Positions 14,975-41,869 of a stretch of DNA of 64,000 nucleotides are shown in pieces. The notes under the pieces were generated by a model. The model did not search any database and had not been told where the DNA came from. It saw nothing but the letters and a program-made list of their open reading frames with translations. Within the stretch, counting starts at the first letter, position 1; each line of letters opens with the position of its first letter. Origin of the DNA: Streptomyces alboflavus (GTDB lineage Bacteria; Actinomycetota; Actinomycetes; Streptomycetales; Streptomycetaceae); contig NZ_JNXT01000022.1 of assembly GCF_000716675.1 (NCBI RefSeq), forward strand, positions 1 through 64,000. The letters are read 5' to 3'. A program made the position numbers and the translations under genes.

Positions 14975-15016
14975 TGCTCTCGTCTCCTGCATCAGTCATC
15001 AGTGGTGTCGCGTGCG

Positions 15017-18667: not shown

Positions 18668-18692
18668 GTCTCAATCCCCGCTTTCGCGCTGT

Positions 18693-19094: not shown

Positions 19095-19103
19095 GCCCTC
19101 CCA

Positions 19104-22500: not shown

Positions 22501-22678
22501 CGACGGTGTCCTGGAGCGGTCTTGCCAGGTCGTCGAGGATGTACGCCGTGTCGATGAGCTTGTTCGCCTCGCGCCCCGTGAGGAAGGTGGCAAAGCCCCA
22601 GATCGCCGTGAGGGACACGAGCGGCACGAGCAGCAATGCCACGATCTTCCGGCGGATTGACTTCCCGCGAAAGCGCAT
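19541..22678 (-). CDS. cvnA: Conservon sensor histidine-kinase-like protein CvnA
   Basis: A 1045-residue membrane sensor. One transmembrane helix is at about residues 13-32, followed by an extracytoplasmic nitrate/nitrite-sensor-type helical domain. A second helix (VAGVLGLLAVLLSLFLSV) leads into a HAMP-like linker. The helical LFRLDHLTTRMRRHAEGL segment and the ATPase lid (HLLAELLENATVFSPP, DRGLGMASEVL) follow. The last ~330 residues are a disordered Arg/Pro/Asp-rich tail (MDRAAGSTDTPPRTAG-like). The ATG at 22678 has GGGGGAGG just upstream; the frame runs further up but without support. Signal input is unknown. Confidence 0.92.
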   Translation of the reverse strand: MRFRGKSIRRKIVALLLVPLVSLTAIWGFATFLTGREANKLIDTAYILDDLARPLQDTVEVVQEERRQTLVYLADPRASDALAALRRSRGATDRLVAKIESKARKSDAREALDGQSEERLSVALDSFKGLDALRRTVEEGTISRDKALKMYTRLTDPCFGFLMTLNALDDVGVTAEGRALVGVGQVRELLSREDALIGSALVAGTVTKSEIRQVSDLVAQRGVLLDNSLTQLPDNERARFERYLNGAETSRLRDAEQLLMDSGGGTPRAVTSSDWDRESDKVLTGLADRTDDAVDRLRDRARPQAITVIVQLAVAGVLGLLAVLLSLFLSVRIGRSLIRDLRRLRLEAHEASGVRLPGLLRRLAAGEQVDVETEAPRLTYDKDEIGQVGQALNTLQRAAVEATVKQADLRRGVSEVFVNLARRSQVLLHKQLTLLDTMERRTEDTDELADLFRLDHLTTRMRRHAEGLVILSGAAPSRQWRKPVQLMDVVRAAVAEVEDYERIEVRRLPRIAVTGPAVADLTHLLAELLENATVFSPPHTAVQVLGEHVANGFTLEIHDRGLGMASEVLLDANLRLAETPEFELSDTDRLGLFVVSRLAQRQRVRVSLQPSPYGGTTAVVFIPESLLTDDVPDTGGVGFRLDRPQPQKAVGGTTHDRDAALAQTPVELPGLPASLLDGPVELEAPVGMAGLDGFPGALEDEDSERGGLFRPRRRVGETAGEQHQQARDAREPDLGEPVRAADSAGHDALHPDEPLDDEPAPGGTVPLARRRTPKLVSSHGRRVGPARTRDTDVGPARDTDTADPDSDNARRDTGTGWPGRGPARESRPLGQAPTDTRSDVGPARGALDKRVRDGLGTPARAPRDTTDANGGAGVDLPRRPRTDAGWPDLTPPRPLGPDTPSDPQPLLPRRRPMTDAPRATTRTETAPGADRAARTDRGPMDRAAGSTDTPPRTAGNDQGAPAAGGLPRRVRQANLAPQLKDSPDRRTELDTTPARAGAEERDADEVRSRMASLQRGWQRGREENAVGDDVPDGAAPGTTSEGDGR

Positions 22679-22844
22679 GGCCTCCCCCAGATCGGGCCCC
22701 TCACAGCCGCGCTTCGACCAGGGGCACGCATGTGCGTCAACAAACGGCGCGAGCCTACTACTGAGACACGTGCAACTCGAAGGGACGTCCGGACGCTTTT
22801 CAGCCGTGACGCGAAAAGGGCATCCATAGTTGTCCGCCCATTGG

Positions 22845-22876
22845 GGGAGATTGTCTCCCGCATGTGCCACATGCGG
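22845..22876. promoter_or_regulatory. Two adjacent palindromes upstream of cvnA
   Basis: GGGAGA-TTG-TCTCCC (22845-22859) directly abuts a perfect 19-bp palindrome, CCGCATGTG-C-CACATGCGG (22858-22876). They lie about 180 bp before cvnA and 390 bp before the rightward membrane-protein gene, in a 589-bp gap (22679-23267). The gap has no credible gene; open frames through it are Arg/Gly-rich shadows. The pair is a strong candidate operator for the conservon or the divergent gene. Confidence 0.6.
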
Positions 22877-23267
22877 ACCGAGCCCATCACCCGTACTGGC
22901 AGGCCCAGTTGGCCTGAACTGTTCGCCGAGCGGAACCGATCGCACCGAAAGGGGATCTCTCATCCCGGGGGATCCGTCGTCGGGAGCGGGAATCTTCCGT
23001 GGCGCCCATTCGTCGATCAGTACGAGAGCGGATGCGCACGGGGGCCGAGTGGGGCGGGCGCCGGAAGGTGCGGGGGCGCAAGAGCAGACGAAGCAGACAG
23101 GGGCGGGGACCGCGGACGGCTGCACGGCCGGGCCCTGGCAGCACGGCGTAAAGCAGCGTAAAACGGGCAGCAAGCGGAGAGTCGGACATGAGAGCTCTCG
23201 ATCGGCCGGCCGCCAGGCACGGGCAGGACGGCGGCTGGGGCAGGACAGCGGGGGGAGTGACGAGTTG

Positions 23268-24056
23268 ATGGGTACGACAGAGCGCCGGCGGGCGTCGGCG
23301 GGCAGGACGTCCGAGAAGTCCGCGAGCACCGAAGCGGCGGAGAAGGACAAGGAGTCGACGGGTCGGCGGGCAGCCGGGGCGGCTTCCGCCACACGGCTCG
23401 CGGAGAGAACGAGCGACGACTCCCGGGGCGGCCGCGCCAGAGCGGCCGAGGGGCGCGGGCAGTCGAAGGGTTCGGGGCGGCGTGCCGAGGCCAAGACTCT
23501 GGAGCGGCGCGCCGAGCCGAGGGGCGCGGATCGGACCGCGGGGTCCGGGAGTTCGGACGGCCGCGAGTTCGGGGAGGGTCGTGGTCCTACGGACGGGCGT
23601 GACTCGGCGGAGGTGCGGGAGCGGCAGGGTCACTTCGAGGCGCTGGACGACGGGGAGTACACGGAGCGGCGGCCGCTGTGGGTGGACGAGCCCGCGCGTC
23701 GGCCGCGGCTGCCCGACCCCGTCCGCAAGGCGGCCGTGCGGGCCGTACTCATCGTGTCCTTGACGCTCATCCAGGCGATGACGGCGTTCTTCTGCACGAT
23801 GGCCGAGTCCTGGCTGGCCTTCCCCATGGTGCTGAGCAGCGTGGCCAGCACGGTCGTGGCGACGTGGGGCGTGTGCGACGTCTGGGTGACCCGCCAGGTG
23901 TGGAACCAGCGCAACGGCGTGGTGTCTATGCCCAGCAGCACGGCACGCAGACTCCGGCGCGAGCGCCGACGCGCCCGCCGCCAGGCACGCGTCGCCGGCC
24001 GCGCCAAGGAGGGCATACGGAGCCCGGGCGGACAGGGGCAGCTGTCGCACTCCTGA
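23268..24056 (+). CDS. Membrane protein with long disordered N-terminus
   Basis: A protein of about 262 residues that I cannot assign. The first ~150 residues are a highly charged, Arg/Glu/Gly/Ser-rich disordered region. Two hydrophobic helices follow (VRAVLIVSLTLIQAMTAFF and FPMVLSSVASTVVATWGV), then a basic RRLRRERRRARRQARV tail. The ATG at 23268 follows GGGGGAG. It is divergent from the conservon and could be a membrane accessory. The composition of the N-terminal part is biased enough that the true start could be later. Confidence 0.7.
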   Translation: MGTTERRRASAGRTSEKSASTEAAEKDKESTGRRAAGAASATRLAERTSDDSRGGRARAAEGRGQSKGSGRRAEAKTLERRAEPRGADRTAGSGSSDGREFGEGRGPTDGRDSAEVRERQGHFEALDDGEYTERRPLWVDEPARRPRLPDPVRKAAVRAVLIVSLTLIQAMTAFFCTMAESWLAFPMVLSSVASTVVATWGVCDVWVTRQVWNQRNGVVSMPSSTARRLRRERRRARRQARVAGRAKEGIRSPGGQGQLSHS

Positions 24057-24128: not shown

Positions 24129-25529
24129 TCAGGCAGCTGTTGTCTGTCGGGCCCGCAGCTCTCGTCGCGTTCTCATGAACGGGCGGGCGCAGTTGACCGC
24201 GAGCGCGGCCGTCACCCGGCCCGCGTGTTCGTACAGCGCGAGGAAACCGCCGTCGTCCGGACTGCCCTCCGCGATCCGTACGGTGGCGTCGGCGGGGCGG
24301 TGTCCAGCGAACTGGATGCGGGAGCCGTACTGGTCGGACCAGAAGTACGGCAGCGCGGTGACGAACTCCACGGTGCGGGCGGCGAGCAGGTTACGGACGG
24401 CGACGCGGGGTTGCTCCGTCGCACTCGTCCAGTGTTCGGAACGAACGCCGCCCACGCGGGCGACGTCTCCCACGGCGACCACCTGCGGGAGCGAGGTGAC
24501 GCAGCCGTCGTCGCACAGGACGCCGTCGCCCACGGCGAGCGAAGTGCCGGAGAGCCAGCCGGTGTTGGGGGTGGCGCCGATGCCGACGACGACCACGTCG
24601 GCGGGGAGGACGCGGCCGTCGGACAGCTCGACCGCGGTGACGTGGCCGGAGGTGCCGGGCCGGGGGTTTCCCGGGGCGGTGGCGCCGGACGGGGCGGCGG
24701 GGGCCATGCGGTGCAGGCCTGCCACGCCCGTGCCGGTGAGCAGGCGGGCGCCGCCCTTTCGGTGCAGGTCGGCGCAGAACAGGGCCATGTCCGGGCCGAG
24801 TTGCGGAATCAGGGGCAGAGGGGCGGCCTCGACGACGGTGACGTCATGGCCGAGGGCGACGCACGACGACGCGGTCTCGGCGCCGATGAAGCCACCGCCG
24901 ATCACCACGACTCGACGGGGGCCACGGGCCAGGTCGGCGCGCAGGGCATGGGCGTCGGCGAGCGTACGCAAGGTGTGGACGCCCGCGGGCTGAGGGCCCG
25001 GCAGGCGGCGGGCCGACGCTCCGGTCGCGAGGACGACGCCGTCGGTGACGACCGTGCGGCCGTCGTCGAGGAGGACGGCGCGGCCGTGCTGATCGAGGCC
25101 GGTCGCGTGGACGCCGAGCAGCCATTCGGCGGCCAGGTCCGCGATCTCCTCGGGGTCGGTGAGGGCGAGTGGGTCGGTTGGGGCGGATTCGTATGCTGCG
25201 GGGGATGTGGGGGTGTTGCCAGTCGTGGGGTCGGACTTCGCGGCCGCGCCCGGGACGGTGCCAGGCCCGGGGCCGGTGGCGCCGTCCGTGGCGCTGGTCG
25301 CGGGCGTGGCCGTGCCCGTGCCCGTGCCCGTGCCCGGGGCGCTGTACGCGGCCCTGGCAGTGGCTGTGTCCGCAGCCGTGAGGAATGACTTGGAGAGGGG
25401 TGGGCGGTCGTACGGCAGGTGGGGTTCGGCGCCGACGATCACGAGGCGGCCGTCGAAGCCCTGGGCGCGCAGCTCGCGGGCCGCGTAGAGACCGGCGAGG
25501 GAGGCGCCCACGACGGTGACGGTGTTCAT
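24129..25529 (-). CDS. FAD-dependent ferredoxin reductase with low-complexity insert
   Basis: A 466-residue NAD(P)H reductase of the rubredoxin/ferredoxin-reductase group. The FAD site is TVVGASLAGLYAARELR, followed by PYDRPPLSKSFLT. The NAD site is VVVIGGGFIGAETASSCVALG. Later ADVVVVGIGATPNTGWL and VAVGDVAR are typical. Between residues ~53 and ~115 sits a Gly/Thr/Pro/Ala-rich insertion (GTGTGTATPATSATDG ...) not usual in the family. A second softer insert near residue 280 reads APSGATAPGNPRPG. It overlaps the upstream Rieske ferredoxin gene by ATGA. The pair probably supplies electrons to the Rieske oxygenase at 32529-33647, by analogy with other ring-hydroxylase systems. Confidence 0.88.
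   Translation of the reverse strand: MNTVTVVGASLAGLYAARELRAQGFDGRLVIVGAEPHLPYDRPPLSKSFLTAADTATARAAYSAPGTGTGTGTATPATSATDGATGPGPGTVPGAAAKSDPTTGNTPTSPAAYESAPTDPLALTDPEEIADLAAEWLLGVHATGLDQHGRAVLLDDGRTVVTDGVVLATGASARRLPGPQPAGVHTLRTLADAHALRADLARGPRRVVVIGGGFIGAETASSCVALGHDVTVVEAAPLPLIPQLGPDMALFCADLHRKGGARLLTGTGVAGLHRMAPAAPSGATAPGNPRPGTSGHVTAVELSDGRVLPADVVVVGIGATPNTGWLSGTSLAVGDGVLCDDGCVTSLPQVVAVGDVARVGGVRSEHWTSATEQPRVAVRNLLAARTVEFVTALPYFWSDQYGSRIQFAGHRPADATVRIAEGSPDDGGFLALYEHAGRVTAALAVNCARPFMRTRRELRARQTTAA
25311..25334. repeat. (CGTGCC)4 hexamer repeat inside the reductase gene
   Basis: Four perfect tandem copies of CGTGCC encode the Gly-Thr run of the reductase insert. Because the unit is six bases, copy-number changes keep the frame. 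Confidence 0.9.
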
Positions 25530-25990
25530 GCGGCGGACCCCTCACCGGTCAACGAGCCTCGCCCGGGGCCGGAGGCGGCGAGGGAGGCGGGGGCGGAGGC
25601 CGCGAGGGAAGCGGCGGACAAGGAGGCGGCGGCCGCGAGGGGCGCGGAGGCCGGGAGGGGAGCAGCGGCCGGGACGGGGGTCGCGGCCGGGTCGGTCAGG
25701 TGGACATGGATGGTTCCGTCGACCACGCTCACGCGGTGGGTGCGCACCGCGCGGCGGGCCGGCAGACACGTCGGCTCTCCGGTCCGGAGATCGAATGAGG
25801 CGGCGTGCAGCGGGCATTCGACCAGACAGCCCTCCAGCCAGCCCTCGGAGAGGGAGGCGTCCTGGTGACTGCAGGTGTCGTCGACGGCGTACAGCGCGCC
25901 GTCGGCGTTGAACACCGCGACGGGGGGTGTGGTGTCGAGACGGACGGACTCGCCCGCAGGGAGGTCTTCAAGGCGGCAGACGGGAATCAC
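25526..25990 (-). CDS. Rieske [2Fe-2S] ferredoxin with Ala-rich tail
   Basis: A 154-residue protein. Residues 1 to ~100 are a small Rieske domain: cluster ligands DTCSHQDASLSEG (CxH) and VECPLHAASFDLRTGEP (CxxH). The last ~50 residues are an Ala/Ser/Pro-rich tail with no known function. It would carry electrons from the adjacent reductase to an oxygenase. The GTG at 25990 begins VIPVCRLEDLPAGE and follows AGGAGG by four bases. A start further up (26092) would add non-Rieske sequence. The stop overlaps the reductase start, so the two are made together. Confidence 0.88.
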   Translation of the reverse strand: MIPVCRLEDLPAGESVRLDTTPPVAVFNADGALYAVDDTCSHQDASLSEGWLEGCLVECPLHAASFDLRTGEPTCLPARRAVRTHRVSVVDGTIHVHLTDPAATPVPAAAPLPASAPLAAAASLSAASLAASAPASLAASGPGRGSLTGEGSAA

Positions 25991-26002
25991 GGGCCCTCCT
26001 CT

Positions 26003-26037
26003 GGATCTGTCGGCCCGGTGGGATCTGTCGGCACGGT
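26003..26037. repeat. 18-bp tandem repeat in front of the Rieske gene
   Basis: GGATCTGTCGGCCCGGT (26003-26019) is repeated at 26021-26037 with one change. The copies start 13 bp before the Rieske ferredoxin start codon, so they would lie in its leader or promoter. They could be protein sites or a slippage product. Confidence 0.6.
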
Positions 26038-26083
26038 CCGGGACCGTTCGGGCCAAGGACTCTTCGGTAGCATGAAGTTTCAT

Positions 26084-26105
26084 ATGGCGCACCAGAGAGC
26101 GCTAT
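26084..26105. promoter_or_regulatory. Candidate IclR operator between reductase operon and iclR
   Basis: ATGGCGC (26084-26090) and GCGCTAT (26099-26105) form a near-perfect inverted repeat with an 8-base spacer. The right arm contains CGCTATG (26100-26106), which recurs inverted (CATAGCG) twice before the betaine operon. It lies in the 204-bp divergent gap between the Rieske/reductase operon and the IclR gene. Confidence 0.5.
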
Positions 26106-26194
26106 GCGCAACAGAATCCGGTGGGATGCCCATCGCGTCAAGGGGCTCCCTGGGACGCGGCTCCGAGAGGCCGCCGAGTGGTGAGAGTTGAGAT

Positions 26195-27082
26195 ATGACC
26201 CGCACGCGGAAACAGCCTGGCCAGAACGAGGAGCCGCACCAGGGAGCAGCCCAGGAGGAGCGCCGGGAAGGGCGCGAGGAAGAACCCGGGAAGCCCCGGG
26301 AGGCACGTGAGCCACAGGCCAAGGCTCCCGCCGGTTCGGTGCAGTCCGTCGACCGCGCGGTGAGCGTCCTCGAGATCCTCGCCCGGCACGGCGAGGCCGG
26401 GGTGACGGAGATCGCCGACGAGCTGGGGGTGCACAAGTCGACGGCGTTCCGGCTGCTCGGCGTGCTGGAGAACCGCGGTCTCGTCGGGCAGGCGAAGGAC
26501 CGCGGCAAGTACTTCCTCGGCGCGGGCGTCCTGCGCCTCGCCGGGGCGGCGGCGGTACGGATGGACATCTCCCAGGAGGGCGGTCCGGTCTGCCGCGAGC
26601 TGGCCGACGAGCTGGGCGAGACGGTCAACATCGCCGTCCTCGACGACGACGCCGCGGTCAACATCATGCAGGCCCGCGGGCCCGCGTCCGTGACCGCCCA
26701 GAACTGGCTCGGCCGGCGCACCCCGCTGCACGCCACCTCCAGCGGGAAGGTCCTGCTCGCGCACCTGCCGACGACCCTGCGCGAGGGCCAGATCGCCCGC
26801 ACGCTGCCCCGCATCACCGAGCACACGGTGACCGGAACGGTGGCGCTGCGCCGCGACCTGGAGGCCGTCGTCCAGCAGGGCTTCGCCATCGCCGTGGAGG
26901 AGCTCGAGGTCGGGCTCGCCGCCGTGGCCGCCCCGGTGCGGGCGCACGACGGCAAGGTCATCGGGGCCCTGAGCGCTTCCGGGCCGGTGTACCGGCTGAC
27001 GGAGGACCGGCTCACCGAGCTGGCCAAGCGCACGGTCGCGGCGGCGGTGGAGCTGTCGCGGCGGATGGGCTACGGCTTCTGA
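26195..27082 (+). CDS. IclR-family transcriptional regulator
   Basis: A 295-residue regulator. A disordered charged N-terminus of ~45 residues precedes the winged helix-turn-helix (VQSVDRAVSVLEILARHGEAGVTEIADELGVHKSTAFRLLGVLENRGLV). The C-terminal effector domain follows (WLGRRTPLHATSSGKVLLAHLP and EELEVGLAAVAAPV). It lies between the divergent ferredoxin/reductase operon and the co-directional betaine operon, so it is the likely local regulator of both, probably responding to betaine, dimethylglycine, sarcosine or formaldehyde. The repeated CGCTATG motif on both sides supports that. Whether it activates or represses cannot be seen. Confidence 0.92.
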   Translation: MTRTRKQPGQNEEPHQGAAQEERREGREEEPGKPREAREPQAKAPAGSVQSVDRAVSVLEILARHGEAGVTEIADELGVHKSTAFRLLGVLENRGLVGQAKDRGKYFLGAGVLRLAGAAAVRMDISQEGGPVCRELADELGETVNIAVLDDDAAVNIMQARGPASVTAQNWLGRRTPLHATSSGKVLLAHLPTTLREGQIARTLPRITEHTVTGTVALRRDLEAVVQQGFAIAVEELEVGLAAVAAPVRAHDGKVIGALSASGPVYRLTEDRLTELAKRTVAAAVELSRRMGYGF

Positions 27083-27385
27083 CGGCCGCGGGGTAGAGGG
27101 CCGTGCAGGGGCGCGGCCCACCCCCGTCCGCCCACGCGCGGGCCACCCCCCTCCGCCCCACGGTCCGCCGCGCGCCCCGGCCGTCCTCCTTGCCGCCGTC
27201 TCGCGGCGCGCCCCCGCCCGGTGCCGGACGCCACGCCCACGCCCGCACACCGCGCTGCCGCGCCGCACACCGCACACCGCGCCACACACCGCGCCGCAGC
27301 GCGCCTCCCGCCGCCTGGCCGATGCCGAGCGGGGCCGAACCGGGCCTGGCCGACGCCGAGCCGGGCCGGGCAGGGCCCACGCCGG

Positions 27386-27420
27386 GCCGAGCCGAGCCGA
27401 GCCGAGCCGAGCCGAGCCGC
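27386..27420. repeat. GCCGA pentamer repeat
   Basis: Six GCCGA units and one GCCGC lie in tandem in the 525-bp gap (27083-27607) between the IclR gene and the betaine operon. The first ~350 bp of the gap is strongly C-rich on the plus strand, and its long minus-strand frame is low-complexity Arg/Gly/Ala sequence, so I count it as non-coding. Confidence 0.85.
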
Positions 27421-27479
27421 CCAAGCGGGACACCCCCGCACGCCTGCCCGCACCCCCGCCAGACCCGTTTCGCGACACC

Positions 27480-31260
<3,781 letters not shown>

Positions 31261-31265
31261 CCGTC

Positions 31266-32453
31266 GTGTCTCCCACCACCCCCACCTACGACGTGATCGT
31301 GATCGGCCTCGGCGGCATGGGCAGCGCCGCCGCCCACCATCTGTCCGCGCGCGGAGCCCGCGTCCTCGGCCTGGAGAAGTTCGGCCCCGTGCACCAGCGG
31401 GGCTCCAGCCACGGAGGCTCCCGGGTCACGCGCCAGTCGTACTTCGAGGACCCCGCGTACGTACCGCTGCTGCTGCGCGCGTACGAGCTCTACGACAAGC
31501 TCGAACAGGACACCGGCCGTGACATCGCCACCCTGTGCGGCGGCGTGATGGTCGGCAGCCCGGACGGGCGGGTGGTCTCCGGGGCGCGGCTCTCCGCCGA
31601 GACCTGGGGGCTTCCGCACGAGATGCTGGACGCCCGCGAGATCCGCCGCCGATTCCCGACACTGACGCCGCGCGACGACGAAGTGGCACTCTACGAAGAG
31701 CGCGCGGGTCTCGTCCGGCCGGAGAACACGGTCGCCGCGCATCTGCAGCTCGCCACCCGCCAGGGCGCGGACCTGCACTTCGAGGAACCGGTGACCCGCT
31801 GGGAGCCGTACCGGGACGGCGTGCGCGTGCACACGGCCGACGACACGTACACCGCCGGGCAGTTGGTGATCTGTCCGGGCGCATGGGCGCCGGGGCTGCT
31901 CGCGGACCTGGGGGTGCCGTTCACCATCGAGCGGCAGATCATGTACTGGTTCCAGCCGACGGGAGGTGTCGGCCCGTTCCTGCCGGAGCACCATCCGATC
32001 TACGTGTGGGAGGACCGGGCAGGCGTCCAGGTCTACGGCTTCCCTTCGATCGACGGCCCCGACCTAGGAGTGAAGGTCGCGTTCTTCCGCAACGGCCATG
32101 TGTGCACTCCGGAGACCATCGACCGGACGGTCCATCCGCACGAGGGCGCGGCGATGGCCGAGCACATGGCGCGGCACATACCGCTGCTCCCCGGGCGCCT
32201 GTTGAAGGCCTCCACCTGTATGTACACGACGACGCCCGACGAGCACTTCGTCATCACGCGCCATCCGGCGCACCCGGAGTCGGTGACGGTGGCGTGCGGC
32301 TTCTCCGGGCACGGCTTCAAGTTCGTGCCGGTGGTCGGCGAGATCGTCGCCGACCTGGCGCTCGACGGCACCACGGAACACCCCATCGAGCTGTTCGACC
32401 CCCGCCGGATCACCGGACCGCTGGATCCGGCGCCCGCCACGGCACCGGTCTGA
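31266..32453 (+). CDS. Monomeric sarcosine oxidase-like enzyme
   Basis: A 395-residue FAD enzyme of the MSOX/N-methyltryptophan oxidase family. It would oxidise sarcosine to glycine, formaldehyde and hydrogen peroxide. The FAD site is [19 protein letters not shown]. The covalent-flavin Cys of the family is present in [13 protein letters not shown], and [15 protein letters not shown] follows as in MSOX. The GTG at 31266 is chosen because GGAGGTGA (31253-31260) is an ideal ribosome site five bases upstream. A GTG at 31257 lies inside that site. No catalase gene lies nearby for the peroxide. Confidence 0.9.
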
Positions 32454-32528
32454 CCGAAACCCGCGCCCTCCGGGGCGCACGTCGAAACGAACCGCGCCCG
32501 CCGCGGCGCCCGTCTGAGGAGTACGGAC

Positions 32529-33647
32529 GTGACGACAGAGGTCTCCGCGAGCCTCATCGCGACGCTGCCCGGCCACTACTACACCGACCCCGGTGTCTTC
32601 CTCCAGGAGCAGGAGCGCCTGTTCGAGGCCCTGTGGTGCTGCGCCGTGCGCGCCGCCGACCTCGACCGTCCCGGCGCGTACCGCACGGTCCAGGTCGGCC
32701 GGGAGAGCGTCCTGGTCACCCGCGCCCGCGACGGCGGCCTGCGCGCCTTCCTGAACGTGTGCCGCCACCGCGGCGCCCGCCTGTGCGCGGACGAGGCGGG
32801 CCAGGTCCGGCGCAGCCTCCAGTGCCCGTACCACGCCTGGACGTACGACCTGGAAGGACGGCTGATCGCGGCGCCGAACCTGACGCGGATGCCGGACGTC
32901 GACCGGTCCGCGTACGGCCTGGTCGAGGTCGCGCTGCGGGAGTGGCTCGGCTACGCCTGGGTGTGCCTGGCCGACGCACCGCCGTCCTTCGAGGACACGG
33001 TGATCGGCGAGGCCAGGGAGCGTCTGGGCGACCCCGCGTCGATCGAGCGCTACCGCACCCAGGACCTGGCGCTCGGCCATCGCGTCCGCTACGAGGTGCG
33101 CGCCAACTGGAAGTTGATCGTCGAGAACTTCATGGAGTGCTACCACTGCGCGACCATCCACCCCGAGCTGACGGACGTCCTGCCGGAGTTCGCCGACGGC
33201 TTCGCGGCGCAGTACTACGTAGGGCACGGCGCCGCCTTCGGGGATGACGTCAGCGGCTTCACCGTGGACGGTTCCCCGGGCTTCGGGCGGCTGCCCGACG
33301 TCGCCGACGACCAGGACCGCCGCTACTACGCCATCACCGTCAAGCCGGCCGTGTTCGTCAACCTCGTCCCGGACCACGTGATCCTGCACCGCATGTTCCC
33401 GCTGGCCGTGGACCGCACGGTCGTCGAGTGCGACTGGCTGTACGCACCCGACGTCGTCGCCTCCGGAGCGGATCTGTCGAAGTCGGTCGAGCTGTTCCAC
33501 CGGGTCAACGAGCAGGACTTCGCCGCGTGCGAGCGCACCCAGCCCGCGATGGGCTCACGCGCGTACCGGCAGGGCGGCGTCCTTGTGCCGACCGAGCATC
33601 ACATCGGGGTGTTCCACCACTGGCTCATCCGGCGGCTGGCTTCTTGA
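32529..33647 (+). CDS. GbcA-like Rieske oxygenase (glycine betaine demethylase)
   Basis: A 372-residue Rieske non-haem iron oxygenase. The [2Fe-2S] ligands are in NVCRHRGARLC (CxH) and QCPYHAWTYDLEGRL (CxxH). The mononuclear iron site is NFMECYHCATIHPEL. The sequence and the neighbours (dimethylglycine oxidase, sarcosine oxidase) point to glycine betaine as substrate, with dimethylglycine and formaldehyde as products. Stachydrine or carnitine relatives are alternatives. The start is GTG with GAGGAG upstream. No GbcB reductase follows; the Rieske ferredoxin and FAD reductase at 24.1-26 kb may serve. Its 3' end overlaps the convergent SMC-like gene by 23 bp. Confidence 0.87.
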   Translation: MTTEVSASLIATLPGHYYTDPGVFLQEQERLFEALWCCAVRAADLDRPGAYRTVQVGRESVLVTRARDGGLRAFLNVCRHRGARLCADEAGQVRRSLQCPYHAWTYDLEGRLIAAPNLTRMPDVDRSAYGLVEVALREWLGYAWVCLADAPPSFEDTVIGEARERLGDPASIERYRTQDLALGHRVRYEVRANWKLIVENFMECYHCATIHPELTDVLPEFADGFAAQYYVGHGAAFGDDVSGFTVDGSPGFGRLPDVADDQDRRYYAITVKPAVFVNLVPDHVILHRMFPLAVDRTVVECDWLYAPDVVASGADLSKSVELFHRVNEQDFAACERTQPAMGSRAYRQGGVLVPTEHHIGVFHHWLIRRLAS

Positions 33648-36600
33648 ACATCCGTGTCGCCGTGATCTCCCCGTGCACCGTCTCCTCGGCCGGGGCCTGC
33701 TGCTCCTGCGGCAGACCCGGCCGCAGGTGCTCCTCGACACTGATGTACTTCAGGCCCGCGCGCAGGTCCGCGTCGTTGCGCAACCGGATGACCAGGGGGA
33801 ACTCCGCGAGCGCCGTCGTGTCGAACAGGCCGGTGGTGTAGAGCAGCTGGACGCCGAGGGCGTCCGAGACGGCCCGCTGGAGCTCCAGGAGGTACGTGGC
33901 GTTGGCGCGGCCGATGGGGTTGTCGAGGAACAGCGTGCCCGCGTGCCGGTGCTTGTCGCGGCCCCGGTCGTTCGAACGCAGGGCGGCCATCGTGCAGTAC
34001 AGGGCGATGGCGGCGGTCAGGAGCTGGCCTCCGGAGAACACGTCTCCCATCTGCCCCACCGGGACGCGTTCGGCGCGCAGGACGGCGTCCGGCTTGAGGA
34101 TCTCCACAGCGATGCCGCGCGGTTCGAGGGCGGCCTGAACTCCCCTGAGCAGCAGGGACATGCCGTCCCTGCGCAGGTCGGAGTTCTTCTTCACGGCCGC
34201 GCGGGTGGCCTCGTCGATGACCTCGCCCAGGCGCTCGGTGAGTGTCGCCTGGTCGGGCTCCTCGAAGCGGACCCGCAGGAACTCCTGGCCCGACCACTCC
34301 CCCAGGCCCTCGGGAAGCCGGGACAGGCGCTGGGCGGAGCGGAGCGTGGCGAGGGCCGACTCGACGAGGCCGCGCAGCCGGTCGACGATGCTGTCGCGGT
34401 TGCGCTCCAGCTGCTCCAGCTCGTCGGTGAGCACGCGCAGGCGGGGCGCGAAGGCGTCCGCCCACTTCTTGGCGTGCTCGGGCAGGGCGGAGGCGGGCAG
34501 TTCGCGGATCTGCTGCCGGGCGGGGGTGCGGACCTGCTCGTAGCGGGTGGAGTTGGCGTGCCGGACGAGGACGTCGCTGGCCTCGCGCACGGCCGACTCG
34601 GCAGCGGACAGGTCGGCGGCGCAGCCGCGCAGGGAGCGGCGGGTCTCGGCGGCGGCCTGGCGGGCCTCCTCCAGGGTGCCGGGGTGCGGCGCGGGCTGCT
34701 CGTCGTCCTCGGTGTCGTGGTGCTCGCGCAGCAGGTCGCGCAGGAGCGCCGCCGTCTCGTCGAACCCGCCGGCCGCGTCCTCGGTGGCGCGGTGCGTGTG
34801 CAGGAGAGCGGCGTGCGCCTCCTTGGCCCGGCTCAAGGCCTCCGTGTGGGTGGCCAGTTCGGTCGTGGCGGTGCGCAGCAGGGTCTGGGCCTGCTCGGCG
34901 TCGGCCGGGACGAGCTCTTCGGGGAGGTCGGTGTGCGCCTCGCCGTCCTCGGGGGCGTGCCGCTCGGCCTCGCCGCGCAGTCGGCCGAGCTGTTCGCTGG
35001 CGGTGGCGGCGCGGGACTCGATGAGCTGGACCTGGGCCTCCGCGCGGGCGGCGGCGGCCTGCCGGGAGGGTCCGTCGGCGCCGTCGGTGCCTTCGAGGAG
35101 CTGGGCCGCGCGGGTGCGCACCTTGTTGCTGAGCCGGTCGAGCTCGGCGAGCGCGGCGCTCTCGTCGCTCTCCGCGCGGGCCTGTTCGGCGCGCAGGTCG
35201 GCGCCGACACCGACCTTCTCGTACAGCTGCGAGGCCGCGCGGTAGGCCTCGCGGAGGGCGGGCAGCGAGGTCTTGGGGGCGTCCTGGTCCAGGGGTACGT
35301 CCTCGGGGGCGCCGGCGATCTCGGCGCGCTCGGCGCGCAGGGCGCGCGCGGTGCGGCGGGCGTCGTCGGCCGTGCGCTGGGCGGCGCGGCGGTCTTCGTC
35401 GGCGGCGCGGGCGCGGTCCAGACAGGACTGGGCGCGGGCCTCCGACTCGACGGCGTCGTCGGCCAGTTCGCGCAGCTTGGTCTGCCAGCCCGCGCGCTCG
35501 CGCAGGCGGAACGCGAGCCCGGCGAGCGCGTCGGCGGCGCGGCGGGCGCGCTGGGCGCCCTCCTGGCGCTCGTCGCGCACGCGGGCGGCGTCGGCCGCGA
35601 CCTCGTCGGCCTCGGCGCGCGCGGTGCGCGCCTCGGCCAGCTCGGCCTCCGCCTCCTCGGCGAAGGCGCGCGCGTCCCGGGCGGCGGTGGCCAGCTCGGC
35701 GAGGCGCCCCGCGGGGCAGCCGGAGCGCCAGGAGGCGAGCCGCGCGGCCAGCTCCCGGTCCTTGGCGAGGCGCAGGGCGAGCGCCCGGATCTCCTCGTCG
35801 CGCAGGGTGGTGCGCGCCCGCAGGGCCTGCCGCTCCTCGTCGGCGGCGTGCTCGTCGTGCATGGCGGGGTTCGGCGGTACGAGGAAGACGGCGCCGGAGT
35901 CGTCGGCGGCGCTGTCGGCGTGCGGCACCGGGGCGAGCAGCGCGGCGGCGGTGCCGACGGCGACCGTGGAGCGCGGGAGCAGCGCGGCGCCGGTGAGCGC
36001 TTCGCGCGCGCGGGCGTGCGTGTCCGGATCGGTGATGACGACGCCGTCGACCAGCTCGGGGCGTGCGGCGAGCACGCGCGCGTGGTCCGCGGGGTCGACG
36101 GCCTGGGCCAGATAGCGCCATCCCGGGAGGGCCGGAATGCCGTGCTCCCCGAGGAACTCGACGGTGGCGAGGACGTCGGGCCCGGGCGGCAGCAGCCCGC
36201 CGTCGCCGAGCGCGCCGAGGATGCGGGAGTCGTCGGCGGCGGCGGTCCGCAGCTCGAACAACTGCCGTTCGGCGGCGGCCACCCCGTCGTCGAGGAGGGT
36301 CTTCAGGTCGTCGGCGCCGCGGTCGAGCTCCGTGGCGGTGAGGCCGGGGGCGACCGGGGCGAGGGTCTGTCCGGCGGCGGTCGGCGTGGCGGCGCCGGGC
36401 GCGGGGCCGTCGTGGGCGCCGCCCTCGGTGCTCGCGCCACCGCCCGGAGCGCCGTGCGCCCCCTCGGCACCGCGCGACCCCGGAGCGGCGGCCTCCGCCT
36501 CGTCGTCGGCGCCCTCGCCCACCCCGGCCCCGGCGTGCCGGGGCTGGGGCACCCCGTGCCCGATCCCGCCGGATGCGCCCGGCAGGCCAAGGAGTTCGGC

Positions 36601-38421
36601 GACGCGCTCGTCCTGCGCGAGGGAGTCTGCGGTGCGGCTCTCCGCATCGTACGCCTGCTCGGCGGCCGTCGCCGCGTCCTCCGCGCGGGCCGCCGTCAGC
36701 TCGGCGCGGGCCTCGGCGGCGGCGGCCTCCTTGGCCTGGTCGGCGGCCCGGCGTGCGGACTCGCGGGCCTCGTCCCAGGCGGCGACGGCCGTCTTCTCGG
36801 CGTCGCTCGCGGCGAGCGCGGCGCGGGCCGGGTCGGCGTCGGGGGTGCTGTCGTCGAGCCAGCCCGCGCGGACCGCCTCGGCGGTCTCCTGCTCGACCTC
36901 GGTGAGGCGCTGGCGCAGGTGCCCGGCCTCGCTGCGGGCGCGCTGCGCCTCGGTCGCGGCGGTGGTGGCGTCGCGGTGCGACGCCTCGCCGGTCTCCTGG
37001 AGGGCGGCGGAGCGCTCTTCCTCCTCGTTGGCGTGCGACTCGGCGCCCTCGGCGGCGGTGTGCAGGGCGCGGACGAGGTCGGCGGCGGCCTTCGCGCGGG
37101 CGGCGAGCGCGGGGGCGGCGTCCCGCTCGGCCTCGCGGATGGCGACGGCCACGCGCGCGGAGCGGTCGGCGGCGGCGCGGTGGCGCAGGACGGCCTCGGC
37201 GGCCTGCCAGGCGGAGTGCAGGGTGCGGGCGTCGGCCAGCTCACGGCGCTGGGCGGCGGCGGCCTTCTCGGCGACGGTGAGGGCCAGGGAGGCGTGCCGA
37301 TAGGCGAGTTCGGCGGCGATGAGGGCGGAGCGGCCGCGGGCCTGCTCGGCGGCCGTGACGGTGTGGGCGGCGGCGGTGACCTGCTCGGCCAGTTCGGCGG
37401 CGCGGCCCCGCTCCTCGACGGCGCGGGCCGACAGGCGGCGGGCGAGAGTGCGGGTGCGGCGTTCGGCGCCCGCGTGCACGTCACGCGCGCGTGCCCGGGT
37501 GTCCGCGGCGTCGACGATACGTCCGAGGAGGTCCACGGAGCCCGCGGTGAAGTCGCGCTCGGCGATCAGCTCGGCGCGCCGGCCCAGCTTGTTGCCGAAG
37601 CCGTGCACCAGGTCGGCGAGGCCGTCCGTGTCCCGGGTGTCGGTGACGGCGCGCAGCAGCAGGTCGGTGAAGTCGGAGTCCTTCTTGACGGCGAAGAGGC
37701 CCGCGGCCTCGCCCTCGTCGGCGTTCATCTCGCGCTGGTAGCGGAACAGTTCGGGGTCGAGGCCGAGGTCCCCGAGGTGTTCGTTCCAGCGGTCGTGGAT
37801 GTCCTCCCAGTGCACTTCGAGGTGCGGGTAGGCCTTCGTGGCCTCCATGAGGGCGTCCCGGAAGCCCTTCATGGTGCGCCGCCGCCCCTGTGCGCCCGAC
37901 GCGCCCTCGACGGAGGGGCGCACGGCGGTGGACTCGGCGACCGGCAGCGAGTCCAGGCTGAGCCCGGGTCCTGGCCGGAAGGAGTACCAGGCCTCCGCGA
38001 ACTTCCGCGGGTCGTTGGAGACCTGCCGTCCGCGCCACTCGCTGACCTTGCCGACGACGACGCACTCGCCGGTGAGCGTGTGCTGCCACTCCAGGGCGAC
38101 GTGTCCGCAGTCGTCGGCCAGGAGGAACTTGCGCAGCACACCGGAGCTCGCGCCACCCAGCGTGTTCCGGTGGCCCGGCAGCATCACCGAGAAGATCAGC
38201 TTGAGCAGGACGGACTTGCCGCCGCCGTTCTCCAGGAAGAGCACCCCCGCGGGCGCCGGGCGGCGCGGCGGGCCGACGGGCTCCTCCTCGAAGAACTCCG
38301 CCTGCGCGGGCGCGGGGTCGGGCACCACGTCGCCGACGCCGCGCAGGTCCAGCACGGTGTCGGCGTAGCGCGCACCGGCGGGGCCGATGGAGTAGAGGCG
38401 GACCCGGGACAGCTCGTACAT
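33625..38421 (-). CDS. SMC/MukB-like coiled-coil ATPase
   Basis: A 1598-residue head-coil-hinge-coil-head ATPase. The N-terminal head has Walker A FLENGGGKSVLL at about residues 63-73. Long Ala/Glu/Arg coiled coils span ~300-620 and ~850-1350. A hinge-like globular part is preceded by a Gly/Ala-rich loop of ~80 residues (GGIGHGVPQPRHAGAGVGEG ...). The C-terminal head has the signature FSGGQLLTAAIAL near 1462 and Walker B GTLFLDNPIGRAN near 1500. The residue after the Walker B Asp is Asn, not the usual catalytic Glu. The protein resembles MukB/MksB/JetC rather than housekeeping Smc. It follows genes for MukE-like and kleisin-like proteins. Function is inferred: DNA loop extrusion, plasmid or phage defence, or chromosome organisation. 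Confidence 0.85.
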   Translation of the reverse strand: MYELSRVRLYSIGPAGARYADTVLDLRGVGDVVPDPAPAQAEFFEEEPVGPPRRPAPAGVLFLENGGGKSVLLKLIFSVMLPGHRNTLGGASSGVLRKFLLADDCGHVALEWQHTLTGECVVVGKVSEWRGRQVSNDPRKFAEAWYSFRPGPGLSLDSLPVAESTAVRPSVEGASGAQGRRRTMKGFRDALMEATKAYPHLEVHWEDIHDRWNEHLGDLGLDPELFRYQREMNADEGEAAGLFAVKKDSDFTDLLLRAVTDTRDTDGLADLVHGFGNKLGRRAELIAERDFTAGSVDLLGRIVDAADTRARARDVHAGAERRTRTLARRLSARAVEERGRAAELAEQVTAAAHTVTAAEQARGRSALIAAELAYRHASLALTVAEKAAAAQRRELADARTLHSAWQAAEAVLRHRAAADRSARVAVAIREAERDAAPALAARAKAAADLVRALHTAAEGAESHANEEEERSAALQETGEASHRDATTAATEAQRARSEAGHLRQRLTEVEQETAEAVRAGWLDDSTPDADPARAALAASDAEKTAVAAWDEARESARRAADQAKEAAAAEARAELTAARAEDAATAAEQAYDAESRTADSLAQDERVAELLGLPGASGGIGHGVPQPRHAGAGVGEGADDEAEAAAPGSRGAEGAHGAPGGGASTEGGAHDGPAPGAATPTAAGQTLAPVAPGLTATELDRGADDLKTLLDDGVAAAERQLFELRTAAADDSRILGALGDGGLLPPGPDVLATVEFLGEHGIPALPGWRYLAQAVDPADHARVLAARPELVDGVVITDPDTHARAREALTGAALLPRSTVAVGTAAALLAPVPHADSAADDSGAVFLVPPNPAMHDEHAADEERQALRARTTLRDEEIRALALRLAKDRELAARLASWRSGCPAGRLAELATAARDARAFAEEAEAELAEARTARAEADEVAADAARVRDERQEGAQRARRAADALAGLAFRLRERAGWQTKLRELADDAVESEARAQSCLDRARAADEDRRAAQRTADDARRTARALRAERAEIAGAPEDVPLDQDAPKTSLPALREAYRAASQLYEKVGVGADLRAEQARAESDESAALAELDRLSNKVRTRAAQLLEGTDGADGPSRQAAAARAEAQVQLIESRAATASEQLGRLRGEAERHAPEDGEAHTDLPEELVPADAEQAQTLLRTATTELATHTEALSRAKEAHAALLHTHRATEDAAGGFDETAALLRDLLREHHDTEDDEQPAPHPGTLEEARQAAAETRRSLRGCAADLSAAESAVREASDVLVRHANSTRYEQVRTPARQQIRELPASALPEHAKKWADAFAPRLRVLTDELEQLERNRDSIVDRLRGLVESALATLRSAQRLSRLPEGLGEWSGQEFLRVRFEEPDQATLTERLGEVIDEATRAAVKKNSDLRRDGMSLLLRGVQAALEPRGIAVEILKPDAVLRAERVPVGQMGDVFSGGQLLTAAIALYCTMAALRSNDRGRDKHRHAGTLFLDNPIGRANATYLLELQRAVSDALGVQLLYTTGLFDTTALAEFPLVIRLRNDADLRAGLKYISVEEHLRPGLPQEQQAPAEETVHGEITATRMFKKPAAG

Positions 38422-38521
38422 GGCGGCGGACTCTCGTCGTAAGTCGTGCGGGACGAAGAAACGGAACGTGGCGGAACGTCGGTGGACGCGGGCGGGGCGG
38501 CCGGATGCCGTCCCGTGCAGG

Positions 38522-39418
38522 TCAGGAGTGGAACGGCAGGCCTGCGTCGGCCGCCAGCTCCAGGTCGTCGGTGTCGTCGGGGGGCAGCAGCGTCGCGGAG
38601 CCGTCGGTGACGGGCACGACGCCGAGCTCCAGGAGTTCGGCCATGGCGGCGGTGCCCGCCATGTCGCGGACCTGGAGCTGATAGCGCGCGGTGGTGCGGT
38701 AGGTGCCGCCGGAGTCGTCGCCCGTGCGCTGGAGGAAGCCGGAGTCGGTGAGGAACGCGGCGGCCTTGCCCACGATGCCGGTGGTCGACCCGGCGAGCCT
38801 GCGCGCGTCCTTGGTGGCGCCGGTGGAGCTGCGGCGCGCCCAGATCCGCCAGGCGGACTCGAGCCCCGGCGCGTCCGACGCCGGGTCGGTGTTCTCGCCC
38901 TGCTCCTCGGCGCGCTCCTCCAGGCGTCGGCAGGCCTGTCGTACGAAGGCGTCGACGCCGTTGACCGTGACGCGGCCGATGTACCCGTCGTCGGCCAGGT
39001 CCTCGGGGCGCGGGAAGGCCATGGCGGCGACGGCGAGGTGGGCGAGGCCGTGCAGGAAGCGGTCGGTGGAGTCGGCGGCGGCACGGCGTGCGTAGTCGCC
39101 CATGCGGACGGCGAAAACGGAGTCCTCGGCGGCGGTCACGGCCATCCCCGCGCGCGGGGACACCTCCAGGACGACGAGTCCGAGCCCGGCGGCGACGGCG
39201 TCGGCGAGGCGGGCGAAGGGCGGGTCCTCGCGGTACCTGCGGAGCAGTTCGCCGTACTCCTGGTCGCGGGCGGGCTGGAGCTTGGGCTGGAGTCCGAACG
39301 CGACGAGGCGGGCCGCGTCGGCGGCGTCGGCCGGGGTGACGGCGGCGCCCGCGGGCGCCGGGGCCGCGGCGGCGTCCGGCTCGCCCCACGCGGTGTGCTC
39401 TGCGGGGTGATCGGTCAC
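38522..39418 (-). CDS. MukE/JetB-like winged-helix protein
   Basis: A 298-residue protein I assign mainly by position. The middle has long helices (ELLRRYREDPPFARLADAVAAGLGLVVLE) and the C-terminal third looks like a winged helix: FLTDSGFLQRTGDDSGGTYRTTARYQLQVRD. In MukBEF, Mks and Wadjet operons a small winged-helix protein (MukE, JetB) sits between kleisin and ATPase genes, as here. The GTG start at 39418 has AAGGAG eight bases before. The first ~30 residues are Ala/Pro-rich and probably disordered. The gap to the ATPase gene is 100 bp. The family name is an inference from fold hints and gene order. Confidence 0.65.
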   Translation of the reverse strand: MTDHPAEHTAWGEPDAAAAPAPAGAAVTPADAADAARLVAFGLQPKLQPARDQEYGELLRRYREDPPFARLADAVAAGLGLVVLEVSPRAGMAVTAAEDSVFAVRMGDYARRAAADSTDRFLHGLAHLAVAAMAFPRPEDLADDGYIGRVTVNGVDAFVRQACRRLEERAEEQGENTDPASDAPGLESAWRIWARRSSTGATKDARRLAGSTTGIVGKAAAFLTDSGFLQRTGDDSGGTYRTTARYQLQVRDMAGTAAMAELLELGVVPVTDGSATLLPPDDTDDLELAADAGLPFHS

Positions 39419-39557
39419 GGCTGGGGCTCCTTGGTGCGGTCGGTCGGTCGTACGGGGTGCGGGGGCGTGCTGGTGGCCACCTGAGCGTGCCGCGGGGGCG
39501 CGCCGACGGTCCCCGGAGAGTGCGGCCGGCGTCGTGCGGGCTGCGGGGGCGCCGTCA

Positions 39558-41084
39558 TCAGGCCGCCTCCGTCCGGTCGGCCGCCATCCCCACCGCGTCC
39601 AGGAGCGCCGTGCCGACGATGAGGTCTGCGCCGCCGAACTCCGGGTCGTCGAGGTCGGTGCCGTCGTCCACGGCGAAGAGGAGCTGCTGCTCGCCCTGGC
39701 GGTAGGCCGTGCCGACGGGCGGGCTCGCGGCGTGGACGGCGAGGAGGGCGACCAGGTAGGGCAGTTCGGGGTCCTGGCGGCGGGCGTCGGCGAGCAGCCC
39801 GGAGAGCCTGCGGGGCGCGTCGTGCGGCAGCGCGAGCAGTTCCATGGCGCTCGCCAGCTGCTCCTCGCTGAAGCGGCTGTCGTCGGGCGTGGCGATGAGG
39901 TCGGGCTCGGGCATCTCCGCGCCCAGGTGCTCGCGCTCCTGCGGCGGCGTGAGCAGTATGTCGACGAGGTCGCCGACCCGCACCGACACCGGCGTGCGCA
40001 GGCCCGTCCCGCGCGCGAAGAAGGCGTCCGTCACGCGGATCGCCTGCTCGGCGGGGAGTGGCAGGATCGGGGCGACCAACTGGCCGTACAGGTCGAGTCC
40101 CGTGCGCGCGGTGGGGGTGGCGAAGGCCTGCCGGTCCTGCTCGGCGCGGAACAGGGGGCCCGCTTCGAGGAGGCGGGACTGGAGCTGGGTGTGGCGGCGG
40201 ATGCAGTCCTTGACGATGTCGACGAGCTCGGCGGCGCGGCGCTTCTGCTCGGGGTCCTCGGACTCGTCGCGTGCCTTGCGGATGTTCGTCAGGATCGCGT
40301 TCTCGTGGCGGTACCGGTCGGCCACGTGGTCCAGGGCCTCGGCGATCATGTCCGGCACGGACTGGAGCCAGTCCACCGCGCGGACGTTGCGCCGGGTCGC
40401 GTCGAGGGCCCTGCGGAGGGTTTCCGAGTACTGCACGGTGCGGTACCGCGCCTGTTCGGCGGCGAGCTGCGCGTCGGCGAGGCGGCCGCGGCTGATCAGG
40501 ACCTCCAGCTTCACCTCGGCGGCGATCTGGGCGCTGGTGACGTCGGTGTCGAGGGCGCCCACGAGGACGTTCACGGCCTCGTCGGTGGTGCGCAGACAGA
40601 CACCGCCGCCGTAGCCGGGGACCTCCTCGATCAGCTTGAAGTCGTAGTCCCTGCGGACGTAGGTGCCGTCCGGGTCGAAGGTGCCGTAGACCGCGCGGAA
40701 GCCGCGGTCGACGCTGCCCACGTTGATCAGGTTCTCCAGGACCCAGCGGGCGACGCGCTCGTGCTCGGCGGTGGGGCGGCGCGGGGCCTGGGCGGCGACG
40801 CGGGGCAGCAGCCGGGAGACGACCTGGTCGTGGTCGGCGCCCGTGTCGAAGTCCATGTTCAGCGTGACGAGGTCGATGGCGGACAGGGCCACCTCCGCCA
40901 TCGCGTACACCGAATACTCCCCCGCGAGGTTCGCCTTGCGGGCGTCCAGGTCGTGCAGCGGCGCCGTGCACGCGAGCGCGCGCAGGCGCCGTGCCAGGCC
41001 CTCGTCGGCGGCCGGGCCCGGCGCGGGCCGCGGCCCCGCGCTGAGCTGGGACGGAACGGAGTCCGGTACGGCAGGCGAAGTCAC
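39558..41084 (-). CDS. MukF-like kleisin candidate
   Basis: A 508-residue, mostly helical protein. It begins with a winged-helix-like part (LACTAPLHDLDARKANLAGEY ... VARWVLENLINVG) followed by DGTYVRRDYDFKLIEE. A long helical middle contains QYSETLRRALDATRRNVRAVDW and TQLQSRLLEAG. The C-terminal third is a smaller domain. This layout and first place in the operon match MukF/MksF/JetA kleisins, but similarity to MukF itself is too low to see by eye. The GTG at 41084 is chosen because a -10 TAGTCT lies seven bases upstream with no ribosome site, so it is probably leaderless. The frame continues upstream into antisense of gntR. Confidence 0.65.
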   Translation of the reverse strand: MTSPAVPDSVPSQLSAGPRPAPGPAADEGLARRLRALACTAPLHDLDARKANLAGEYSVYAMAEVALSAIDLVTLNMDFDTGADHDQVVSRLLPRVAAQAPRRPTAEHERVARWVLENLINVGSVDRGFRAVYGTFDPDGTYVRRDYDFKLIEEVPGYGGGVCLRTTDEAVNVLVGALDTDVTSAQIAAEVKLEVLISRGRLADAQLAAEQARYRTVQYSETLRRALDATRRNVRAVDWLQSVPDMIAEALDHVADRYRHENAILTNIRKARDESEDPEQKRRAAELVDIVKDCIRRHTQLQSRLLEAGPLFRAEQDRQAFATPTARTGLDLYGQLVAPILPLPAEQAIRVTDAFFARGTGLRTPVSVRVGDLVDILLTPPQEREHLGAEMPEPDLIATPDDSRFSEEQLASAMELLALPHDAPRRLSGLLADARRQDPELPYLVALLAVHAASPPVGTAYRQGEQQLLFAVDDGTDLDDPEFGGADLIVGTALLDAVGMAADRTEAA

Positions 41085-41091
41085 GGTGCAC

Positions 41092-41164: not shown

Positions 41165-41869
41165 TCAGCCCGCCCCGGCCCCGCCCGCCGCGACCCGCCG
41201 CGCGTACGTGTCGACGAGCCCCTGCAGCGAGTCGTCCAGGTAGATCCCGAGCAGCCGCTCGGCCTTCGGGCCGAGGCCGGACTGAAGCGCGTCCAGAATC
41301 TCCTGGTTGCGCACCAAATAGGGCTCGTGGAGGCGGCGCGGGTCGTCCACGACGTGGAAGGCGAGCCGCAGTTCGGCGAAGACGCTGCGCATCAGCTCGT
41401 CGGTGCGGGCGCTCCCGGCGAGCGCGACGAGCTCGCGGTGGAAGTGGATGTTGGCCGTGGAGACGCCCTTCCAGTCCCGGCGGCTCGCCGCCGCCCTGCC
41501 CTCGGCGACGGCCGCGGCGAGCGCGTCGACGGCGTACGGCGGGCGGCCGAGGCCGTGCACGACGGCGCACTCCACCAGGCGCCGGGTGCGGTAGATGTCC
41601 TCGACGTCCTCGACGGTCAGGACCCGTACGAAGACACCGCGGTTGAGTTCGTGGACGAGCAGCCGCTCGTGGGTGAGGAGCCGGAAGGCCTCACGGAGGG
41701 TGTTGCGGGAGACGCCGAGCGCGCCGCCGATGCTGTCCTCCGACAGCCGGGTGCCGGGTGGGAAGTACCCCTCTGCGATGCGGCTCCGGAGGATGTCCGC
41801 GACCCGCTCCGCGGTGCTCGTGCGTCCCAGAAGCGCGCGGTCGTCGGCGAGACCGGTCAGTTCAGCCAT
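41165..41869 (-). CDS. GntR-family regulator (FadR/FCD subgroup)
   Basis: A 234-residue regulator. The N-terminal winged helix is TAERVADILRSRIAEGYFPPGTRLSEDSIGGALGVSRNTLREAFRLLTHERLL. The C-terminal FCD ligand domain has FHRELVALAGS and the helices typical of metal-assisted carboxylate binding. It is divergent from the MFS-DUF1445-pxpABC operon across a 210-bp gap with a palindrome, so it most likely controls that operon and itself. A carboxylic-acid effector such as 5-oxoproline or glutamate would fit. It is on the same strand as the SMC operon but need not control it. Confidence 0.9.
   Translation of the reverse strand: MAELTGLADDRALLGRTSTAERVADILRSRIAEGYFPPGTRLSEDSIGGALGVSRNTLREAFRLLTHERLLVHELNRGVFVRVLTVEDVEDIYRTRRLVECAVVHGLGRPPYAVDALAAAVAEGRAAASRRDWKGVSTANIHFHRELVALAGSARTDELMRSVFAELRLAFHVVDDPRRLHEPYLVRNQEILDALQSGLGPKAERLLGIYLDDSLQGLVDTYARRVAAGGAGAG

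Follow-up and report, generated by a model that had tools for sequence, protein, structure and literature searches.

The window analysed here, a 64,000-nucleotide stretch of Streptomyces alboflavus DNA (contig NZ_JNXT01000022.1), encodes on its minus strand a three-gene SMC complex, JetABC, which we assign to Wadjet type III and for which no gene for the JetD nuclease is detectable. The complex is conserved throughout the genus Streptomyces, and all three genes are, judged by their substitution ratios, under purifying selection. We consider it probable that a type III JetABC motor has lost JetD and has been retained by vertical descent as a core part of the Streptomyces chromosome, working beside Smc, and our confidence in this reading is based mainly on the core sets of the genus.

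The JetABC locus and its ATPase motor

The three genes follow one another on the minus strand in the order kleisin-like, KITE-like and SMC ATPase. The jetA-like gene (39558..41084) has a GTG start, within an open frame that continues upstream to 41570, and encodes a kleisin of 508 amino acids (aa); the jetB-like gene (38522..39418), also with a GTG start, encodes a KITE protein of 298 aa with tandem winged helices; and the jetC-like gene (33625..38421), with an ATG start, encodes the SMC ATPase of 1598 aa. An earlier note on this DNA had described a 1598-residue SMC-type ATPase following two smaller proteins on the same strand, and the coordinates, lengths and strand of this description hold. 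A frame at 39415-41091 was rejected as JetA, as it is the arginine- and proline-rich wrong frame and the true one runs over 39558-41084.

The 508-aa protein matches JetA3 (PADLOC PDLC00567, E 8e-187) over residues 24-506, nearly its full length, and the 1598-aa protein matches JetC3 (PADLOC PDLC00588) with 1399 bits, while the 298-aa protein has no PADLOC profile match. Pfam gives no match above its cut-offs for the JetA-, JetB- and JetC-like proteins and NCBIfam gives none, so that no Muk or Mks family profile from either collection matches any of the three. It is from the JetA3 and JetC3 model matches that the locus is assigned to Wadjet type III, which supports and narrows the earlier proposal of an Mks/Wadjet-related complex without a nuclease. 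The AlphaFold model of the JetB-like protein is a tandem winged-helix KITE and that of the JetA-like protein a MukF-like kleisin, in agreement with the winged-helix and kleisin structures considered earlier for the two smaller proteins. The best fold matches of both models include MukBEF, MukEF and JetABC chains, where the identities of the chains inside these structure entries are those we take them to have. The evidence for the folds thus consists of the AlphaFold models and these assumed identities, since none of the three proteins was linked to an SMC, kleisin or KITE chain by a sequence search of solved structures.

JetC contains a Walker A motif at residues 64-71 (NGGGKS), a signature motif at residues 1462-1468 (FSGGQ) and a Walker B motif at residues 1497-1504. 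Among the JetD-less rows that cover the respective motif, Walker A is NGGGKS in 29/29 (including L051, which reaches a contig end too early to judge JetD), the signature is FSGGQ in 26/26 and the Walker B is LDN in 26/26. Canonical SMC proteins have a glutamate after the Walker B aspartate, whereas an asparagine directly follows this aspartate in all 50 covering JetC rows, with or without JetD, and is therefore characteristic of this JetC family as a whole rather than of its nuclease-free members. Judged by its ATPase motifs, the motor is intact in the nuclease-free copies. In addition, JetC has a low-complexity linker (residues 620-699, coded at 36325..36564 on the minus strand) that is longer in the Streptomyces copies, with 44-129 residues (aligned residues 620-720) in 16 of them, whereas 20 full-length JetD-bearing copies have 24-43.

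A lost JetD-binding site was sought and rejected as a candidate: the JetD-associated conserved columns that are changed in the JetD-less set comprise one in JetA (171, isoleucine to valine) and one in JetB (94), which is too little to point to a lost interface. Core copies from Streptomyces have a longer JetB N-terminus, but no JetD-contact motif is visible in it in either the JetD-less or the JetD-bearing set.

Conservation in Streptomyces and distribution of JetD

JetA matches are present in 193 of 199 Streptomyces genomes and in 192 of the 194 good ones. Among the matches listed, the core JetA copies are 84-94% identical to the JetA of this locus, and G121, which gives the poorest of the 193 matches (E 1.5e-70), also has a core-type JetB at 80% identity. 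JetB is absent from all six genomes without JetA, four of which are assemblies of at least 790 contigs. JetA, JetB and JetC are each encoded by a single open frame in all 16 Streptomyces loci opened, the source locus included, and pairwise ratios of nonsynonymous to synonymous substitution (dN/dS) against 15 relatives are 0.09-0.17 for JetA, 0.08-0.25 for JetB and 0.18-0.32 for JetC, which together exclude chance open frames.

In none of the 16 Streptomyces core sets does JetD directly follow JetC. Consistent with the earlier description of flanks without a nuclease gene, tblastn with three JetD queries gave no match within the window; likewise, the scan for a JetD or MksG partner that the earlier note had proposed gave no match to JetD_C (PF09983) in the whole source genome and none to the type III JetD profile A1 among the 10 of 117 first-look candidates scored. 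Profile A1, built from eight type III JetD proteins, is a fair JetD probe, as it matches the solved chains of MksG (8b7f, E 0.0019) and JetD (7til, E 0.034) and its rows have in common E-N and D-x-D residues, presumably those expected of a Toprim domain. Among 33 sequences searched by tblastn with three JetD proteins, the JetD-less loci gave no match; for L107 and L118-L126, the JetD test consisted solely of a blastp search with their open frames.

Distant relatives differ in this respect. Among 12 distant sets found by JetA alone and covered on the far side of JetC, the distant JetABC sets being mostly from Streptomyces, JetD lies directly after JetC in 11 (L050, L052, L053, L080, L081, L095-L098, L100 and L101), with L107 as the exception. 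The 12 leave out L051, L102 and L103, which meet contig ends, L099, which has a degenerate JetA, and three of five plasmid hits (H3-H5), which were unopened; of the 24 fetched sets with JetD after JetC, 13 (L061, L068, L069, L108-L117) were fetched via the JetD search and are excluded as evidence. Thus, on the question of a JetD-type nuclease beside the genes in relatives, which the earlier note had raised, the nuclease is missing from the Streptomyces orthologues but present in distant sets, many of them from the same genus. Since JetD occupies this position even in the most distant sets, its loss is the simpler reading, although on unrooted trees a gain may also account for the pattern. Moreover, JetA and JetD identities correlate over 23 sets (r 0.857, with 0/2000 permutations as high), which indicates that JetD has travelled with its motor.

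Within Streptomyces, 18 of 199 genomes have a match to the type III JetD profile, which in four of them is partial (E 1.1e-6 to 7.2e-5), and 24 of 199 have a JetD_C match, whatever the Wadjet type. Type III JetD is found in 13 of 16 genomes with at least two JetA matches, in 5 of 177 with one (four of these five being the partial matches) and in 0 of 6 with none; the second JetA copies listed are 30-56% identical to the core JetA. Complete sets are also present on two plasmids, of Rhodococcus and Streptomyces, and the Rhodococcus record names the gene JetD. Two complete JetABCD systems lie within 0.1 Mb of a contig end, and two genomes (L109 in G090 and L110 in G151) have type III JetD matches close to either end of their chromosome contig, as if in terminal repeats. 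Chromosomal position was rejected as a separator of core and other copies, the median distance to the contig end being 1.37 Mb for 22 core copies and 1.31 Mb for 12 others, which include the degenerate JetA of G550 (L099), a stretch where JetB, JetC and JetD are all missing.

JetD-less sets also occur outside Streptomyces. In family f18 (Frankia and Parafrankia), 19 of 35 genomes have a relative, and JetD is absent from all eight f18 loci whose sequence extends 1.5 kb or more past JetC (L054, L056-L059, L071, L072 and L075), whereas L055, L060, L074, L077 and L079 end too early to judge. L107 (G632) is a JetABC set without JetD from a Pseudonocardiaceae-like lineage, the closest named relatives by protein search being Prauserella, Amycolatopsis and other Pseudonocardiaceae; its JetABC genes are immediately followed by gap, pgk, tpiA and secG-type genes that form a glycolysis core cluster (L107, 10029-13438). 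In class-wide searches, absences are lower bounds, as 3-5 candidates were scored per genome and the many Pseudonocardiaceae relatives listed by the protein search were mostly missed by these samples. A JetA+JetB tree places the Streptomyces and Frankia JetD-less rows on one side of a branch (support 88/72) with L107 separate, whereas in a JetA+B+C tree Frankia groups with a JetD-bearing clade plus L107 (support 93). In both trees, which are unrooted, the branches with good support require a minimum of two changes between JetD states. L107 and Frankia have upstream glycosyltransferase-type genes in common (~30-36% identity for the larger one), a weak hint at a common locus.

A probable second chromosome complex and its alternatives

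The source genome encodes its own Smc (G000:C19:56848-60450; SMC_prok_B, 909 bits). JetC is not among the eight SMC_prok_B matches in this genome, of which the one over the cut-off sits on contig C19. A motor with intact motifs that is kept under purifying selection across a genus also having Smc looks like a housekeeping complex. We infer that JetD was lost rather than never present and that the complex acts on the chromosome by loop extrusion. In the way proposed for Wadjet and MukBEF, dimers of JetC, bound together by the kleisin JetA and the KITE protein JetB, would hydrolyse ATP and extrude loops of DNA. Where JetD is missing, extrusion that is completed or stalls would not lead to cleavage, and such cleavage-free extrusion may compact or organise chromosomal DNA beside Smc. 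The favoured function parallels what a review (PMC10586767) describes for MksBEF of Pseudomonas aeruginosa, a complex of SMC, kleisin and KITE that works without a nuclease. Of the two functions proposed in the earlier note, near-fixation in the genus argues for a chromosome role rather than for a new defence variant.

The overall plan of the complex is similar, but distinct, to that of several known systems. With Wadjet type III it shares the JetA3 and JetC3 model matches, the A-B-C order on one strand, the KITE-type JetB and the ATPase motifs; the Streptomyces set differs in having no JetD and in being present in nearly all Streptomyces sampled rather than sporadically. In contrast to MksBEF, the Streptomyces set has no Muk/Mks profile match, and the two therefore seem to come from different Wadjet branches. 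MukBEF and MukEF chains are among the best fold matches of the JetA and JetB models, but at the level of sequence none of the three proteins matches a solved MukBEF chain. With Smc-ScpAB the likeness is confined to the general SMC-kleisin-KITE plan, as Smc is encoded separately in the source genome and JetC falls outside the SMC_prok_B matches. MksBEFG/JetABCD of Corynebacterium glutamicum is likewise an actinobacterial MukB-like SMC complex beside Smc-ScpAB, but has the MksG nuclease and acts on plasmids, according to the portions available of PMC10123090 and PMC7083940. The parts of the system are already catalogued, in the form of the PADLOC models for JetA and JetC, whereas its nearly fixed nuclease-free state in Streptomyces appears to be unreported. 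No paper listed by searches of the open-licence PMC literature on Wadjet, MksB or a second condensin in Streptomyces reports the complex, judged by title or abstract start. Papers on the Streptomyces chromosome, which they describe as linear, discuss Smc, and in their available parts a further SMC complex of the genus goes unmentioned (PMC8410849, PMC8410768, PMC13121528). Wadjet as such is found in 42% of Actinobacteria and is enriched towards Streptomyces chromosome ends (PMC10482375, in part).

In its widest form, the proposal is that Streptomyces has a second condensin, derived from Wadjet type III by nuclease loss and conserved genus-wide, that helps to fold or segregate the chromosome, and that similar losses occurred more than once in Actinomycetes (Streptomyces, Frankia and the Pseudonocardiaceae-like lineage), so that defence SMC complexes repeatedly become chromosome complexes; we give this wider statement an even chance. 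If true, every Hi-C or smc-deletion experiment on Streptomyces would have to take a nearly universal second complex into account. Relatives with and without JetD within one genus also offer a natural comparison for how shape-sensing anti-plasmid machines and chromosome-folding machines interconvert.

Several observations weigh against a second chromosome complex. The nuclease-bearing MksBEFG of C. glutamicum does not fold the chromosome (PMC7083940, in part), and the complex is dispensable in the Frankiaceae, to judge from the 19 of 35 genomes with a match. In one Frankia copy (L057, 5421-9052) jetC is split into two overlapping frames, by decay or assembly error, and a few of the core JetA matches listed contain a stop (G087, G074, G083, G529 and G517). 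Furthermore, profile A1 scored only 10 candidates per genome, and a nuclease unrelated to JetD may act from elsewhere in the genome.

A tentative alternative, clearly less probable than a chromosome role, is silencing without a nuclease, whereby JetABC would extrude and compact plasmids or phage circles and so block their expression or partition without cutting. This would be similar to the restriction of viral DNA by entrapment and compaction proposed for Smc5/6 in eukaryotes (PMC10586767, in part), and would suit a motor that appears intact by its motifs and belongs with a plasmid-sensing family, but the near-fixation in the genus, the recurring neighbours and the low dN/dS values are unusual for defence genes. 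It is unlikely that the complex cuts plasmids as a complete Wadjet with a nuclease supplied in trans. JetD is a separate gene in the JetD-bearing relatives and JetABC has lost almost no conserved position along with it, as this alternative would have it; yet neither JetD_C nor, among the candidates scored, the type III JetD profile matches the source genome, and within the stretches fetched the only gene families present in all 16 Streptomyces loci are JetA, JetB and JetC themselves.

We regard as very improbable a role in counter-defence or self-protection, in which the chromosomal JetABC would disturb an incoming mobile JetABCD, for example through non-cutting mixed complexes. Although type III JetD is found in 13 genomes having at least two JetA matches and complete sets occur on plasmids, the low identity of the listed second JetA copies to the core makes mixed complexes doubtful, and most genomes with a core set have no type III JetD. 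That the locus is a decaying remnant of a defence system, as the absence of JetD and the split or short jetC of some Frankia copies (L057, L059) might suggest, is contradicted for Streptomyces by the three single open frames in 16/16 loci and by purifying selection, and has a negligible probability. In the short Frankia copy (L059, 12479-16018), jetC encodes 1179 aa, again through decay or assembly error.

Neighbourhood of the locus

With regard to the synteny across Streptomyces that the earlier note had suggested examining, several gene families are found repeatedly around the complex in the 16 core loci. With names given by resemblance here and below, 11 loci have a gntR-type regulator gene, 10 have a LamB/YcsF-type gene, and in 11 a sensor-kinase-type gene is located past jetC; the neighbour tables come from a simple GC-frame gene caller, by which genes in lower-GC islands are missed. 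In the window, the gntR-family-type regulator gene (41165..41869, minus strand; cluster c5, 11/16 loci) is the upstream neighbour and lies outside the complex, and a gbcA-like dioxygenase gene (32529..33647, plus strand; named gbcA in the earlier note; cluster c33, common to L119) is convergent with jetC and is located within a variable insertion.

Clusters c10 and c6 follow jetC in most relatives, and their counterparts here are at 19541-24056, separated from jetC by a betaine/sarcosine-catabolism-type cluster (24129-33647), three gene families of which are also present in L119. This cluster also stands between jetC and the recurring sensor-kinase-type gene. A conservon-like set at 14369-22636 comprises a sensor kinase, proteins of 146 aa and 124 aa and a 201-aa GTP-binding-type protein, and is interrupted at 15017-18667 by a gene for a 1216-aa hydantoinase/oxoprolinase-type protein. 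Finally, an IMG/VR viral contig (L082, 1-1485) starts inside a core-type jetA (87% identity), probably because the borders of the called prophage include some host DNA.
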